Shown here in pieces: positions 4,005 to 10,174 of a DNA stretch of 64,000 nt. A program made the position numbers and the translations under genes. The stretch covers positions 18,115 through 82,114 of the forward strand of contig JAJDNR010000026.1 of assembly GCA_022340565.1 (NCBI GenBank), in the 5' to 3' direction. Origin of the DNA: Desulfofustis sp. (GTDB lineage: Bacteria; Desulfobacterota; Desulfobulbia; Desulfobulbales; Desulfocapsaceae). Numbering within the stretch: the stretch's first letter is position 1; each line of letters opens with the position of its first letter. The notes below the pieces were generated by a model, which had not been told where the DNA came from, ran no database searches, and saw only the letters and a program-made list of their open reading frames with translations.

Positions 4005-4925
4005 ATGCACAGACTATTCTGCCGGTTGCTGTTCTGTTCCCTCTTGGGCCTGTCCGGATGCGGTCCTGCAACGATCAACCAAGCAGTGAAGGATGAGCAG
4101 AGCCCCCTTGATTCGAGGCAGATCTTCGACATCGTTTCCGGCAACTCGCTGATCATGCTGGCCCCAAATTTCTCCGGCACCGTATACTTCGACGAGAATG
4201 GATTGCTTTCGGCGGTAGACAACCAGGACCAGCGCGATATCGGCACGTGGGATGTCAACGATCAAGACCAGCTCTGCATGAAATTCAAGCTCTGGTACTA
4301 TGGGGATACGAAATGTTATCGTGTGTTCAATGATGAACAGGAGGAGAAGCTTTCTTTCTTCACAACCAACGGGGCTGCCTATTATACCGCCGTGAGCGTC
4401 GCCGGTGACCCGGCGTCTCTTGCCTCCCGCCTCGGCACCTCCTCCTCGCCCCGTTCGGTCCGCAAGCAGTACTCCGACTCCGACAGCAGCGGGCGGACCA
4501 GTCCGTCATCACAACAAGCTGCATCGGCAGACAGGAGCGAGATCACCGTATCGCCCTCGACAAGCGATGACACCGAAAAGACGGTAAAGCGCCTGGCCGG
4601 GGACTGTCCCGGGTGCAAACTTGCCGGCCTCGACCTGAGAGAGACGTCTCTGATCAAAGCCAACCTGCAGGATGCCGACCTGTCGGGAGCCGATCTCCGT
4701 TATGCGAATCTGCGCCGGGCGAATCTCAAGGGTGCCAATCTCGAAGGGGCCAACCTTACCCACGCGAACCTGCCGGGAGCAGATCTGACCGGGGCCAACT
4801 TAAGAAACTGCGACCTGACGGGCGCCAACCTGCTGCTCGCCAATTTTACCGATGCAGATACGGCCGGGGCCAATTTCACCAACGCCAATCTTGAAAGAAT
4901 CATAGGATTGAACAGACAACAATGA
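4005..4925 (+). CDS. Pentapeptide-repeat lipoprotein
   Basis: Lipobox-like LLGLSGC at the N-terminus; C-terminus A(D/N)LxxAxL repeats (ANLQDADLSGADLRYANLRRANLKGANLEGANL...). Confidence 0.85.
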   Translation: MHRLFCRLLFCSLLGLSGCGPATINQAVKDEQSPLDSRQIFDIVSGNSLIMLAPNFSGTVYFDENGLLSAVDNQDQRDIGTWDVNDQDQLCMKFKLWYYGDTKCYRVFNDEQEEKLSFFTTNGAAYYTAVSVAGDPASLASRLGTSSSPRSVRKQYSDSDSSGRTSPSSQQAASADRSEITVSPSTSDDTEKTVKRLAGDCPGCKLAGLDLRETSLIKANLQDADLSGADLRYANLRRANLKGANLEGANLTHANLPGADLTGANLRNCDLTGANLLLANFTDADTAGANFTNANLERIIGLNRQQ

Positions 4926-7900
4926 GCGCAGGATTCGTTCATCTCCATGTCCATACCCAGCACAGTCTCCTCGATGGGGCGATTCAGGTTCCCGAACTGC
5001 TGAAGAAATGCAGCGAGTATCAGATGGACGCGGTGGCCGTCACCGACCACGGTGCAATGTACGGGGCGCTGGAATTTTTTGTTAAGGCGAAAAAGGCCGG
5101 TATCAAACCGATCGTCGGCTGCGAGTTCTATATCGCCCAGGGGAGCAGAACCGACAAATCCACCGGAGATGCTGGTGTGGCTTATCATCTGATACTTCTG
5201 GCGATGAACTATCAGGGCTACCGCCATCTGATGAAGCTTTCCAGCATTGCCCAGTTCGAGGGCTTTTACTACAAGCCCCGCATCGACAAAGAGGTCCTCA
5301 GACAATACAGCGGTGACCTCATCGCCCTCAGTGCCTGCCTGCACGGCGAGGTGCCCTGGCTCATATCCCATGACCGCTTCGACGAAGCGCGGGAGGCTGC
5401 CCGGGAAATGCAGGCATTGTTCGGTGACCGTTACTACTTCGAACTCCAGGAAAACGGCATCGACGAGCAGCAGGTCGTCAACCGGGGCCTGCTGAAACTC
5501 AGCAAAGAGCTCGGCATCAAGGTCCTGGCCACCAATGATTGCCATTATCTGAACAAGGAAGAAGCCCACGCCCATGAGGTGCTTCTCTGTATCCAGACCG
5601 GCAAGACCATCAACGACCCAAAGCGATTCAAATTCTCTTCGGATGATTTCTTCTTCAAGTCGCCGGACGAGATGAAGCGGACCTTCCATTACTGCCCCGA
5701 GGCGATTTCCAACACCGTCGAGGTGGCCGAACGCTGCAATCTCGATATCGAGTTTGGACGCTACCATTTCCCCAACTTCCCGCTCCCCGAGGGTGATACC
5801 CTGGAATCGATGTTCTCCCGCGCCTGCCATGAGGGTCTCAAGCAGCGCTTCGCGGCGATGCGCAGAAAAGGACCGCTGACACCGGAAGTTGAGAAGCAGT
5901 ACCGTGAACGACTGGACATGGAGATCGGGGTTATCAACGAAATGGGGTTTTCCGGCTACTTCCTGATCGTCGCCGACTTCATCAACTGGGCCAAAGACCA
6001 CGACATCCCGGTCGGTCCCGGCAGAGGTTCCGGTGCCGGCAGCCTTGCCGCCTACTGCATGTCAATTACCGATATCGATCCAATCCCCTACGGACTGATC
6101 TTCGAACGGTTTCTCAATATCGAAAGAAAATCGATGCCGGACTTCGATATCGATTTCTGCATGGAACGCCGCGGTGAAGTTCTCGACTATGTCCGCAGCA
6201 AATACGGCGGCAGCGAACACGTCGCCCAGATTATCACCTACGGCTCGATGAAGGCCCGGGGCGTTATCAGAGATGTCGGACGGGCTCTTGACATCCCGTT
6301 CGGCGAGGTCGACAGGATCGCCAAGCTGGTTCCCGAGGAATTGGGGATGACTATCGATAAGGCAATCAACCAGGAGCCGAAATTGCTCGAAGCTGCAGAC
6401 CTGGATCCGCGCATCGACGAACTTCTGAGGGTTTCGCGCACGCTCGAAGGTCTCGCCCGGCACACCTCGACCCACGCCGCGGGCGTCGTCGTGTCACCGG
6501 AACCGATAACCGAGTACCTGCCGGTTTGCAGGGGCAAGGAAAACGAGACGATTACCCAGTACGATATGAAGCACACCGAGATGACCGGACTCATCAAGTT
6601 CGATTTCCTGGGGCTGAAAACCCTGACGGTCATCAAAAAGGCGCTCGGTCACATTAAAATCGACTGCGGCAAGGATCTCGACATGTCAGCCATCGACATG
6701 GCCGATCAGAAAACCTACAAACTTCTGTGCAGCGGCAACTCGCTCGGCATCTTTCAGCTGGAAAGCAGCGGCATGCGTGAACTGCTGATGAAAATGGCGC
6801 CGGAGCAATTCAGCGATCTGATCGCCCTCGTTGCGCTCTACCGTCCGGGGCCGCTCGAGTCAGGCATGGTGGACACCTTCGTCAGCACCAAGCACGGCCA
6901 TCAGGAAGCCCACTACGTCCTGCCGCAGCTCGAACCGATCCTGGAGGAAACATACGGGGTTATCGTATACCAGGAGCAGGTCATGAAAATTGCCAACGTG
7001 CTGGCAAACTACTCGCTCGGCGATGCCGATATCCTCAGACGGGCCATGGGTAAAAAGATTCCCGAGGTCATGGAGGCCGAGAAAGAGAAGTTCATGGCAG
7101 GCGCCAGGGAAAATCGCATCGATCAGGACAAGGCCGCATATATCTTTGACCTGATGGCAAAATTCGCCGGGTACGGGTTCAACAAATCCCACTCCGCGGC
7201 CTATGCGCTGATCGCCTACCAGACCGCCTATCTCAAAGCCCACTACCCCGCCCAGTTCATGGCCGCACTGCTGTCATGCGACATGAACAATACCGACAAG
7301 GTTGTTGCCTACATCAACGAATGCCGGGAGCATCACATCGAAGTACTGCCTCCCGACATCAACGAAAGCGTGCAGGATTTCAGCGTCCACGAGGACCGTA
7401 TCCGTTTCGGTCTGGCCGCGGTCAAGAATGTCGGTGAGGCGGCATTGGCAAGCATCATCCGGGAACGCGAAGAAAACGGCAAATTTACGTCACTGGTGGA
7501 TTTCTGCAACCGGGTCCATTCGGCCAGCGTCAACAATCGGGTAATCGAGAGTCTGATCAAGTCGGGATCGTTCGATTCCCTCGGCTGCAGACGATCACAG
7601 CTGCTCGCCGTTCTGCCGAAAGCCATGGACCAGGCAAAAGCCTATCACCGTGACCGGATGAGCGGACAGATGTCGCTGCTCTCGCTTGCCGGAGGCTCAC
7701 CCGCAACCGCTGTCGCGAATATCGCCCTGCCCGATATCGAGGAGTGGCCGCAACGGGAAAAACTTATTTACGAGAAGGAGACGGTGGGATTTTACATAAC
7801 CGGGCATCCCCTGGAATCGGCCATCGATGAGATCAGGACGATTACCGATTCCGACATTGCCGGTCTGAGCAATTTCAACGACGGGCAGCCGGTGAGAATC

Positions 7901-8437
7901 GGCGGACTCATCCGCAACCTTCGCCAACTCAAATCAAAGCGCGGCGAGCCAATGGCCTTCGTGACCGTCGAGGATATCCTGGAAACCGTCGAAGTACTGG
8001 TTTTCCCGGAAGCCTACGCAGGCTGTTACCAGCTCTTGAACACCCCCGACCCGATCATCGTCAAAGGCACCATTCAGAAGAGCGACCAGGGAATCAAGAT
8101 CGTCGCCGATGACATCGATCTGCTGCCCGAGGCCCGGCTTAAATACACCGTCGCTGTCCACGCCAAGCTCAGGGCGGACACTATCAGCAGGCTGCGGCTC
8201 GAAGAACTCAAGGAAATCCTGTTCAACAACCACGGAGCCTGCCCTTTCTCGATCACCCTGCATTTTGCCGGCGAGGGTGAGGTGGATGTGGAGATCAACA
8301 AGGATTTCAGCGTCAGGCCCTGCCGGGAAATGACCGTCAGCGTCACCGAGCTGTTCGGCTACAACCCGCTCTCATTCGTGAAAAAGACCCTCGAACCGGC
8401 ACCCCGCAAGCGAAGCTACAAGCAGCAGACGAATTGA
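4922..8437 (+). CDS. dnaE: DNA polymerase III subunit alpha
   Basis: PHP domain HLHVHTQHSLLDGAI; GPGRGSGAGSLAAYC; PDFDIDFCMERR; RHTSTHAAGVVVS; 1171 aa. ATGA overlap with the upstream gene. Confidence 0.97.
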   Translation: MSAGFVHLHVHTQHSLLDGAIQVPELLKKCSEYQMDAVAVTDHGAMYGALEFFVKAKKAGIKPIVGCEFYIAQGSRTDKSTGDAGVAYHLILLAMNYQGYRHLMKLSSIAQFEGFYYKPRIDKEVLRQYSGDLIALSACLHGEVPWLISHDRFDEAREAAREMQALFGDRYYFELQENGIDEQQVVNRGLLKLSKELGIKVLATNDCHYLNKEEAHAHEVLLCIQTGKTINDPKRFKFSSDDFFFKSPDEMKRTFHYCPEAISNTVEVAERCNLDIEFGRYHFPNFPLPEGDTLESMFSRACHEGLKQRFAAMRRKGPLTPEVEKQYRERLDMEIGVINEMGFSGYFLIVADFINWAKDHDIPVGPGRGSGAGSLAAYCMSITDIDPIPYGLIFERFLNIERKSMPDFDIDFCMERRGEVLDYVRSKYGGSEHVAQIITYGSMKARGVIRDVGRALDIPFGEVDRIAKLVPEELGMTIDKAINQEPKLLEAADLDPRIDELLRVSRTLEGLARHTSTHAAGVVVSPEPITEYLPVCRGKENETITQYDMKHTEMTGLIKFDFLGLKTLTVIKKALGHIKIDCGKDLDMSAIDMADQKTYKLLCSGNSLGIFQLESSGMRELLMKMAPEQFSDLIALVALYRPGPLESGMVDTFVSTKHGHQEAHYVLPQLEPILEETYGVIVYQEQVMKIANVLANYSLGDADILRRAMGKKIPEVMEAEKEKFMAGARENRIDQDKAAYIFDLMAKFAGYGFNKSHSAAYALIAYQTAYLKAHYPAQFMAALLSCDMNNTDKVVAYINECREHHIEVLPPDINESVQDFSVHEDRIRFGLAAVKNVGEAALASIIREREENGKFTSLVDFCNRVHSASVNNRVIESLIKSGSFDSLGCRRSQLLAVLPKAMDQAKAYHRDRMSGQMSLLSLAGGSPATAVANIALPDIEEWPQREKLIYEKETVGFYITGHPLESAIDEIRTITDSDIAGLSNFNDGQPVRIGGLIRNLRQLKSKRGEPMAFVTVEDILETVEVLVFPEAYAGCYQLLNTPDPIIVKGTIQKSDQGIKIVADDIDLLPEARLKYTVAVHAKLRADTISRLRLEELKEILFNNHGACPFSITLHFAGEGEVDVEINKDFSVRPCREMTVSVTELFGYNPLSFVKKTLEPAPRKRSYKQQTN

Positions 8438-8542
8438 GATTAAACTGTTGCTCAGAGGAGTTGAATGCGTTGCTCCATTTCTTGAAAAGCAGAAACCACT
8501 GACATAAGACAAGTTCGGGGAAGGAAGCGGACGCAGGTGGCA

Positions 8543-8708
8543 GCAGTGGCGCCGTGTTTCAGACTGCATCGCGGAGGCCAGCCGGGGCGGTGAACATGGT
8601 TTGCTACGGGCCGGAGGCGTAGGCAGCGAAGCTGCCGTATCCCGGAGCAATGTTCACCGTCACGGCGAACAGGCCGCAGAGCCGCAGGCTGAAATATGGC
8701 GCCACTGC
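8543..8708 (+). ncRNA. Putative structured RNA or palindromic element: 166-nt nested hairpin
   Basis: Outer arms 8543..8562 (GCAGTGGCGCCGTGTTTCAG) and 8689..8708 (CTGAAATATGGCGCCACTGC) pair over 20 nt with two G.U wobbles. Inner arms GGTGAACAT (8589..8597) and ATGTTCACC (8650..8658). Apical hairpin GGCAGC-GAA-GCTGCC (8622..8636). Confidence 0.5.
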
Positions 8709-8761
8709 GTATCCCGGATCTGTTTCTATCTTTAATCGATACTGATCGCGCCGGTGTCAGG

Positions 8762-10174
8762 CTACAGGATAAACCGGCTCAAGTCCTGGTCCTCGGCGAT
8801 ATTCTGCAGCTGGCTGCGGACGTAGGCGGCGCTGATAACGAACCGCTGGTCGTCGGTTTCAGATGCATCGAACGACAGATTGTCGAGCACCCGCTCCATC
8901 ACCGTGTGCAGTCTGCGGGCGCCGATTTCCTCGGTGTTCTCGTTCACATGGACGGCGATCCGGGCCATTTCCTCGATGGCGTCATCCTCGAAGACGAGCT
9001 CGATGCCCTCGGTCTCCATCAGTGCGATATACTGCTTGGTGAGCGCATTCTCCGGTTCGGTGAGGATGCGCACGAACTCCTCCATGCCCAGCGAATCGAG
9101 TTCCACCCGGATCGGGAAACGACCCTGCAGTTCAGGTACCAGATCTGACGGTTTGGAAACGTAAAACGCGCCGGAGGCGATGAACAGGATGTGATCGGTT
9201 TTCACCATACCGTGTTTGGTGTTTACCGTCGTACCCTCGACGATCGGCAGCAGATCCCGCTGAACCCCTTCTCGCGACACGTCGGGCCCGTGGGTGCCGT
9301 GTCTCGATGCGATCTTGTCGATTTCGTCAAGAAAGATGATACCCGACTCCTCGGTCCGTTTCAGCGCCTCTTTCATGACCTTGTCCATATCGATGAGCCG
9401 CTCCATCTCCTGCTGCTTGAGCGCCTCCATCGCATCGGGTATCTTCAGTTTGCGCTCTTTCTTCTTGCGCGGAAACATCTTGCTGAAGGCATCCTGAAGA
9501 TTGGACTGCATGTCCTCGAGCCCGGACGTCGTCATGATTTCGACCATCGGCATCGACTTGGGTTCATCGAGGGTCAGTTCCACCTCACGCTCGTTGAATT
9601 TACCGTCCCTCAGCATCTGTCTGAGTTTTTCACGGGTCGAGGACTCGTGTTCTCGGGCCGCTGGGACGCCGGCCCCTTTCTGGTTTACCAGCGTAAAGGA
9701 CCCATTGCCTTCCGGCCCGGAACTGGATAGCGGGCTCGACTTCCCCGGACCCGGGGGGAGCAGCAGATCGAGGATTTTGTCCTCGGCCTGTGCCTCGGCG
9801 ATGCCCCGTAGCCGCTGCTTCTCCTCGGACTTGACCATGCCGATGGCGATTTCGACCAGATCCCTGATCATCGACTCGACATCACGTCCGACATAACCGA
9901 CTTCGGTGAATTTCGACGCTTCCACCTTCAGGAACGGCGACTCTGCAAGGATTGCCAGGCGCCGTGCGATCTCCGTCTTGCCGACGCCGGTGGGTCCGAT
10001 CATGATGATATTCTTCGGTGCAATTTCCTCCCTGAGCGGGGACGAAACCTGGCGCCTGCGCCAGCGGTTGCGCAGGGCAATGGCCACCGAGCGCTTGGCG
10101 TCTTTCTGACCGACGATGAATTTATCGAGAGCGGCAACCGTCTCCCGCGGAGTTAACGACTGTATCTTTTTCAT
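8762..10174 (-). CDS. hslU: ATP-dependent protease ATPase subunit HslU
   Basis: [34 protein letters not shown]; Walker [25 protein letters not shown]; next to hslV. Confidence 0.97.

Follow-up and report, generated by a model that had tools for sequence, protein, structure and literature searches.

A probable MITE-like family of mobile hairpins, with a fold probably selected on the plus strand, in the dnaE-hslU gap of a Desulfofustis genome

The window analysed here, a stretch of 64,000 nucleotides from a Desulfofustis sp. genome, carries dnaE (4922-8437, plus strand) and hslU (8762-10174, minus strand), and the 324-bp gap between them holds a nested hairpin. A preliminary description, made from the letters alone, had placed it at 8543-8708 with 20-nt arms, and we found the stem as described: 8543-8562 pairs with 8689-8708 through 18 Watson-Crick pairs and two pairs that are G.U on the plus strand. 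The second stem and the apical hairpin (GGTGAACAT at 8589, ATGTTCACC at 8650, GGCAGCGAAGCTGCC at 8622) were also verified, as were both positions, 8637 and 8709, of the 10-bp direct repeat GTATCCCGGA. This repeat is mostly a local feature, the outer position usually reading GTTTCCCGGA in other full-length copies of the element. The plus strand of 8543-8708 folds with a minimum free energy of -100.8 kcal/mol (z -7.7) and the minus strand with -89.2 kcal/mol (z -6.7); neither value was beaten or equalled by any shuffle. Rfam, searched at curated and permissive thresholds, gave no family at its cut-off, in line with the earlier failure to recognise an RNA family; sub-threshold eukaryotic matches, far under the cut-off, were set aside. 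We saw no sigma-70-like promoter at the window locus, and neither a terminator call nor a U tract after the GC-rich stem, as an intrinsic terminator would have. Two congeners, G003 and G001, have 59 and 90 bp between dnaE and hslU and no hairpin there, and thus the longer gap of the window holds an insertion.

The hairpin is one of many, spread over a few related bacteria of sulfate-reducer type. A BLAST-type search returned about 20 dispersed matches in the own genome; nine, lying on both strands, span the full length with 93-100% identity. A covariance model made from 22 copies detected 27. Across 93 genomes of the same family (the own genome and 92 others), the model matched eight others, with 24, 18, 10, 8, 7, 5, 5 and 1 matches, and had no match in 84; these counts run slightly high, a few matches being opposite-strand shadows of one palindrome. 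A scan of named genomes gave homologues in Desulfofustis glycolicus, uncultured Desulfofustis and Desulfobulbaceae MAGs, while matches in Azospirillum and Terrimicrobiaceae were dropped, being without matching core or arms when read. The plasmids and phages searched gave no match. We took 25 viral-contig matches to the core 16-mer as chance, none being left once the partner strand was demanded.

What the copies share is a core, in which 5'-CTGCATCGCGGAGGCC pairs with 5'-GGCC-GNAGAGCM-GCAG. Two internal loops interrupt it: in one, ATCGCGGA stands opposite GNAGAGCM, and in the other, which is asymmetric, a single base (A/C) faces GAWMA. The two loops are almost unchanged in our alignment of 22 copies (A1) and largely preserved in 45 copies of other genomes. 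The outer 21-bp arms are nearly wholly different between lineages and still pair without gaps; in the other genomes we counted 34 distinct arm types. The element is longer than 166 nt, flanks on either side being common to other copies. Two main hairpin types occur in the own genome, A (that of the window) and B, which often stand head to head in composites of about 540-590 bp end to end with imperfect terminal inverted repeats. Several own-genome copies (L002, L007, L009, L010, L019, L020, L021) also have, nested or adjoining, another small hairpin repeat that is not related to the first (GAATTAAGGGGACA..TACTTAATT / AATTAAGTA..TGTCCCCTTAATTC), as if the two had common insertion hot spots. In the genome G025, Desulfofustis-type copies (L033 and L036 flanks) terminate differently, in ATGAAAATC(A/G)G / GATTTTCAT, and some of them adjoin a second partial copy, which suggests tandem insertion.

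Comparison with the composites L004, L006 and L008 places a deletion junction of hairpin B and the spacer at 8530/8531 of the window (Table 1). In the window copy what is left of B, its outer end, directly abuts the inner flank of hairpin A, which makes this copy a deletion derivative, with remnants only of terminal inverted repeats. It is an old, truncated copy that has lost its partner hairpin, and it is probably no longer mobile.

Table 1. Parts of the hairpin element in the dnaE-hslU gap, in window positions.
Feature	Position	Strand	Basis
Probably the original composite's left terminus (terminal inverted repeat), now decayed; exact end uncertain	8478..8512	+	Weak likeness to B-side outer ends of other copies, read by hand
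GTTCGGGGAAGGAAGCGG, remaining outer end of hairpin B, itself lost here	8513..8530	+	Identical sequence beside intact B hairpins in L004, L005, L006, L008
ACGCAGGTGGCA, inner flank of hairpin A	8531..8542	+	Comparison with composite copies L004, L006, L008
Hairpin A, conserved structured unit, 166 nt	8543..8708	+	Folds; alignment A1 and pair counts
Outer helix, 5' arm	8543..8563	+	Pairing kept although letters vary by lineage; two-sided changes in 19 of 25 outer-helix pairs
Core 5' strand CTGCATCGCGGAGGCC, near-invariant loop ATCGCGGA	8564..8579	+	Alignment A1, copies in other genomes
Inner helix 5' strand, partner 8650-8666	8581..8597	+	Fold and pair counts
Apical hairpin GGCAGC-GAA-GCTGCC	8622..8636	+	Fold and sequence
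Inner helix 3' strand	8650..8666	+	Fold and pair counts
Core 3' strand GAACAGGCCGCAGAGCCGCAG, loops GAACA and GCAGAGCC	8667..8687	+	Alignment A1, copies in other genomes
Outer helix, 3' arm	8688..8708	+	Fold and pair counts
Right outer end, in the window copy diverged from the consensus GTTTCCCGGATCTGAATCAGATATCTGC-TATTGATGG; exact end uncertain	8709..8746	+	Right ends of copies aligned

Compensatory changes, proposed earlier as a check on the fold, are abundant in the family. Across A1, 94% of the cells pair, and 28 of the 46 pairs have changed on both sides with pairing kept. None of 500 shuffles reached any of five measures, and sliding the register lowered pairing to 32-45%, so that covariation beyond chance, as asked of a structured ncRNA, was found under both controls. 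The preliminary description had read a plus-strand molecule from its two wobble pairs, a weak basis that the family-wide counts strengthen. Among imperfect pairs, counted by lineage and column on the core plus strand, G.U outnumbers A.C by 41 to 6, and by 86 to 28 in independent genomes. Arm composition alone predicts a ratio of about 1.4 to 1, and the excess is partly, not wholly, compositional. In the 27 columns holding both G-C and A-U, the intermediate is G.U at 16 and A.C at 2. This excess argues that a single plus strand probably folds and is selected; since a G.T wobble in DNA leaves the same trace as G.U in RNA, the molecule would be either RNA or single-stranded DNA.

Long palindromes are homogenised by template-switch repair of quasi-palindromes, and the arms could owe their complementarity to such repair during replication alone, in a passive palindromic MITE with neither strand functional. 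Several copies have a hairpin centre inverted relative to the ends (L006:1501-1666, L300, L303, L304, L307), evidence of arm-to-arm recombination inside the palindrome of the sort expected of long palindromes; this and the terminal features of the G009 units described below agree with a passive element. But strand-symmetric repair does not predict the G.U bias or its G.U intermediates, and the asymmetric internal loops are preserved across genera, though homogenisation should erase them. We regard a purely passive palindrome as unlikely.

The gene context of the copies, taken from a simple codon-usage gene caller, places 77 of them: 32 in convergent gaps, 35 in tandem gaps, 10 in divergent gaps and none within genes. 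Convergent gaps make up 41 of the 139 gaps in those loci, the elements' own gaps counted in, and the 32 copies found there lend some support to an element recruited where convergent genes end, either as a 3' UTR or as a bidirectional terminator. Avoidance of promoters accounts equally well for this distribution, however, the hairpin has no U tract or terminator call, and the tandem-gap copies show no sense bias (15 sense, 20 antisense). We thus give very little credence to such an element, and the elaborate dnaE 3' UTR proposed earlier falls with it. We rejected a single-copy RNA gene on the approximately 27 own-genome copies and their context. A trans-acting structured ncRNA family, spread by duplication, transcribed from the plus strand and acting via a core-binding protein, would explain the covariation, the plus-strand wobble and the near-invariant loops; yet we saw neither promoter nor terminator at the window locus, the tens of scattered copies keep no orientation relative to genes, and units of G009 have terminal repeats and target-site duplications, which makes it distinctly unlikely. 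Orientation and the missing promoter and terminator do not fit a dedicated RNA gene any better than a 3' UTR element, and covariation and strand bias do not by themselves show transcription.

The clearest signature of mobility comes from G009, a genome from a neighbouring genus that is assembled as a single contig. Here 23 units, 242-271 bp long and in most cases 264 bp, enclose the hairpin between imperfect terminal inverted repeats GGTTCATCCG..GCGTAC. Delimited after comparison with ISL3 elements, the units end in GG...CC and are flanked by 8-bp target-site duplications (TSDs), perfect in 6 of 23 (chance 0%) and matching at 7 or more of 8 positions in 14 of 23 (chance 2.6%); flank matching exceeds chance at width 8 only. 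The terminal pattern of these units occurs in 54 of the 93 family genomes, versus 2 for the reversed control. Genomes from two other genera of the family contain complete insertion sequences (IS) with GGTTCATCCG ends, G160 (L336:540-1853, 1314 bp) and G031 (L337:569-1821, 1253 bp). They are flanked by perfect 8-bp TSDs, TGATTTTT and ATAAATAG; the ORF of the G160 element matches PF01610 (DDE_Tnp_ISL3) with an E-value of 1.8e-78, and the G031 element also has an ISL3 match. In G009 itself we saw no intact IS with GGTTCATCCG ends. The terminal repeats and 8-bp TSDs of G009 indicate that the hairpin there is carried by ISL3-type MITEs. MITEs of 226-274 bp with ISL3-type ends and without the hairpin core were also observed in several genera (L339, L340, L341, L342, L343), and ISL3-type transposition thus does not require the hairpin.

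In the own genome the mover is less clear. The composite ends, TTTCCATCAA..., are not clearly ISL3-like, a TSD search around six composites found none, and no autonomous copy was found within these composites or the G009 units. The own genome, 94% complete, yielded no ISL3 transposase and no Y1 transposase (PF01797); its mover may have gone unrecognised, been lost, or be encoded in the missing 6%. An ORF in L297, presumably of IS630 type, belongs to no unit. A strand-specific hairpin with a mismatched core, set head to head in pairs within the own-genome composites, is also what a REP/REPIN-like element moved as single-stranded DNA by a Y1 (RAYT) transposase would look like. The lack of that transposase in the own genome, the absence of the hairpin core beside the 13 Y1 loci of relatives that we inspected, the 8-bp TSDs of G009 and a unit much longer than a REP leave this explanation scarcely any credence.

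Set against the usual features of MITEs, the family is short, non-coding, dispersed and multicopy; its terminal inverted repeats are clear in G009 and imperfect in the own-genome composites; and it has TSDs on the evidence of G009. As to an ISL3 origin the picture is divided: the ends agree with those of the G160 and G031 IS in G009 and do not in the own genome. The preliminary description had left three readings side by side. The palindromic mobile repeat stands, together with the plus-strand inference; the 3' UTR and the ncRNA gene are not supported, many copies and TSDs (the latter in a relative) being what it had itself named as marks of a mobile repeat rather than an RNA gene.

We therefore consider it probable that the hairpin belongs to a mobile family that is non-autonomous and MITE-like and whose hairpin is selected as a folded plus strand, the window copy being a former composite. 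The signature of transposition belongs to G009, and elsewhere movement would be expected by extension. A DDE transposase acting in trans would recognise the ends and move the unit, and insertions would be tolerated between genes only. The molecule that folds could be plus-strand read-through RNA, or DNA that becomes single-stranded during replication or transposition, and the fold would most likely protect or mark the element's nucleic acid via a putative protein bound to both internal loops. As for the window copy, it may have entered between dnaE and hslU as a B-spacer-A composite, with hairpin B and the spacer deleted afterwards. A bolder reading, which we hold to be unlikely, takes the hairpin itself as the conserved replicating unit, a structured RNA module or folded single-stranded DNA intermediate that recurs across genera within different transposon ends and requires its strand-specific fold to spread. 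If true, it would be an RNA- or ssDNA-dependent hitchhiker, for example with a partner protein on both loops, and not a plain MITE.

Bacterial MITEs are usually viewed as passive, no more than the ends left behind by an insertion sequence since lost. In this family the interior has strong covariation, a strand preference and near-invariant loops common to several genera, and the terminal repeats vary from genus to genus. Two questions thus become directly testable: whether selection can act on a mobile repeat through its nucleic-acid fold, and whether covariation alone ought to count as evidence for an RNA gene.

Among known systems, the ISL3 IS of G160 and G031 have the terminal repeats and 8-bp TSDs of the G009 units; ISL3 IS and the other MITEs with such ends lack the conserved hairpin core, and the own-genome ends differ from theirs. 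REP/REPIN sequences, like the family, are imperfect hairpins with strand specificity, and many stand in inverted pairs; REP units, however, measure 20-40 bp and carry a GTAG or CGTC tag (PMC3733652), and their RAYT partner is absent where we searched (the own genome and the copies in relatives), and we do not class the family with them. Reports on Geobacter metallireducens and G. bemidjiensis describe many multicopy palindromic intergenic families (PMC2700814, PMC2996986); likened by description rather than by sequence, the hairpin family may already have been described among Geobacter-type palindromic sequences. Correia/NEMIS and ERIC are small mobile units whose long stem-loop transcripts can affect adjacent mRNAs (PMC2229807). 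They have TA ends, whereas those of the hairpin family are GGTTCATCCG (G009) and TTTCCATCAA (own genome). YPAL/RU-2, the Yersinia palindromic sequences, are about 168 bp long with TSDs of 3 to 26 bp (PMC2229807) and are like the hairpin family in size, a single long stem-loop, intergenic dispersal, target duplications, a composition that is not A+T-rich and the lack of TA ends (PMC2229807). This likeness is one of description, for which reason we do not assign the family to YPAL, and the two differ in taxon and in TSD, 3-26 bp versus 8 bp throughout in G009; the hairpin family also shows strand asymmetry and composites of paired hairpins. On these comparisons, it appears to resemble YPAL/RU-2, NEMIS and ERIC in its behaviour (PMC2229807; MITE review PMC10969869).
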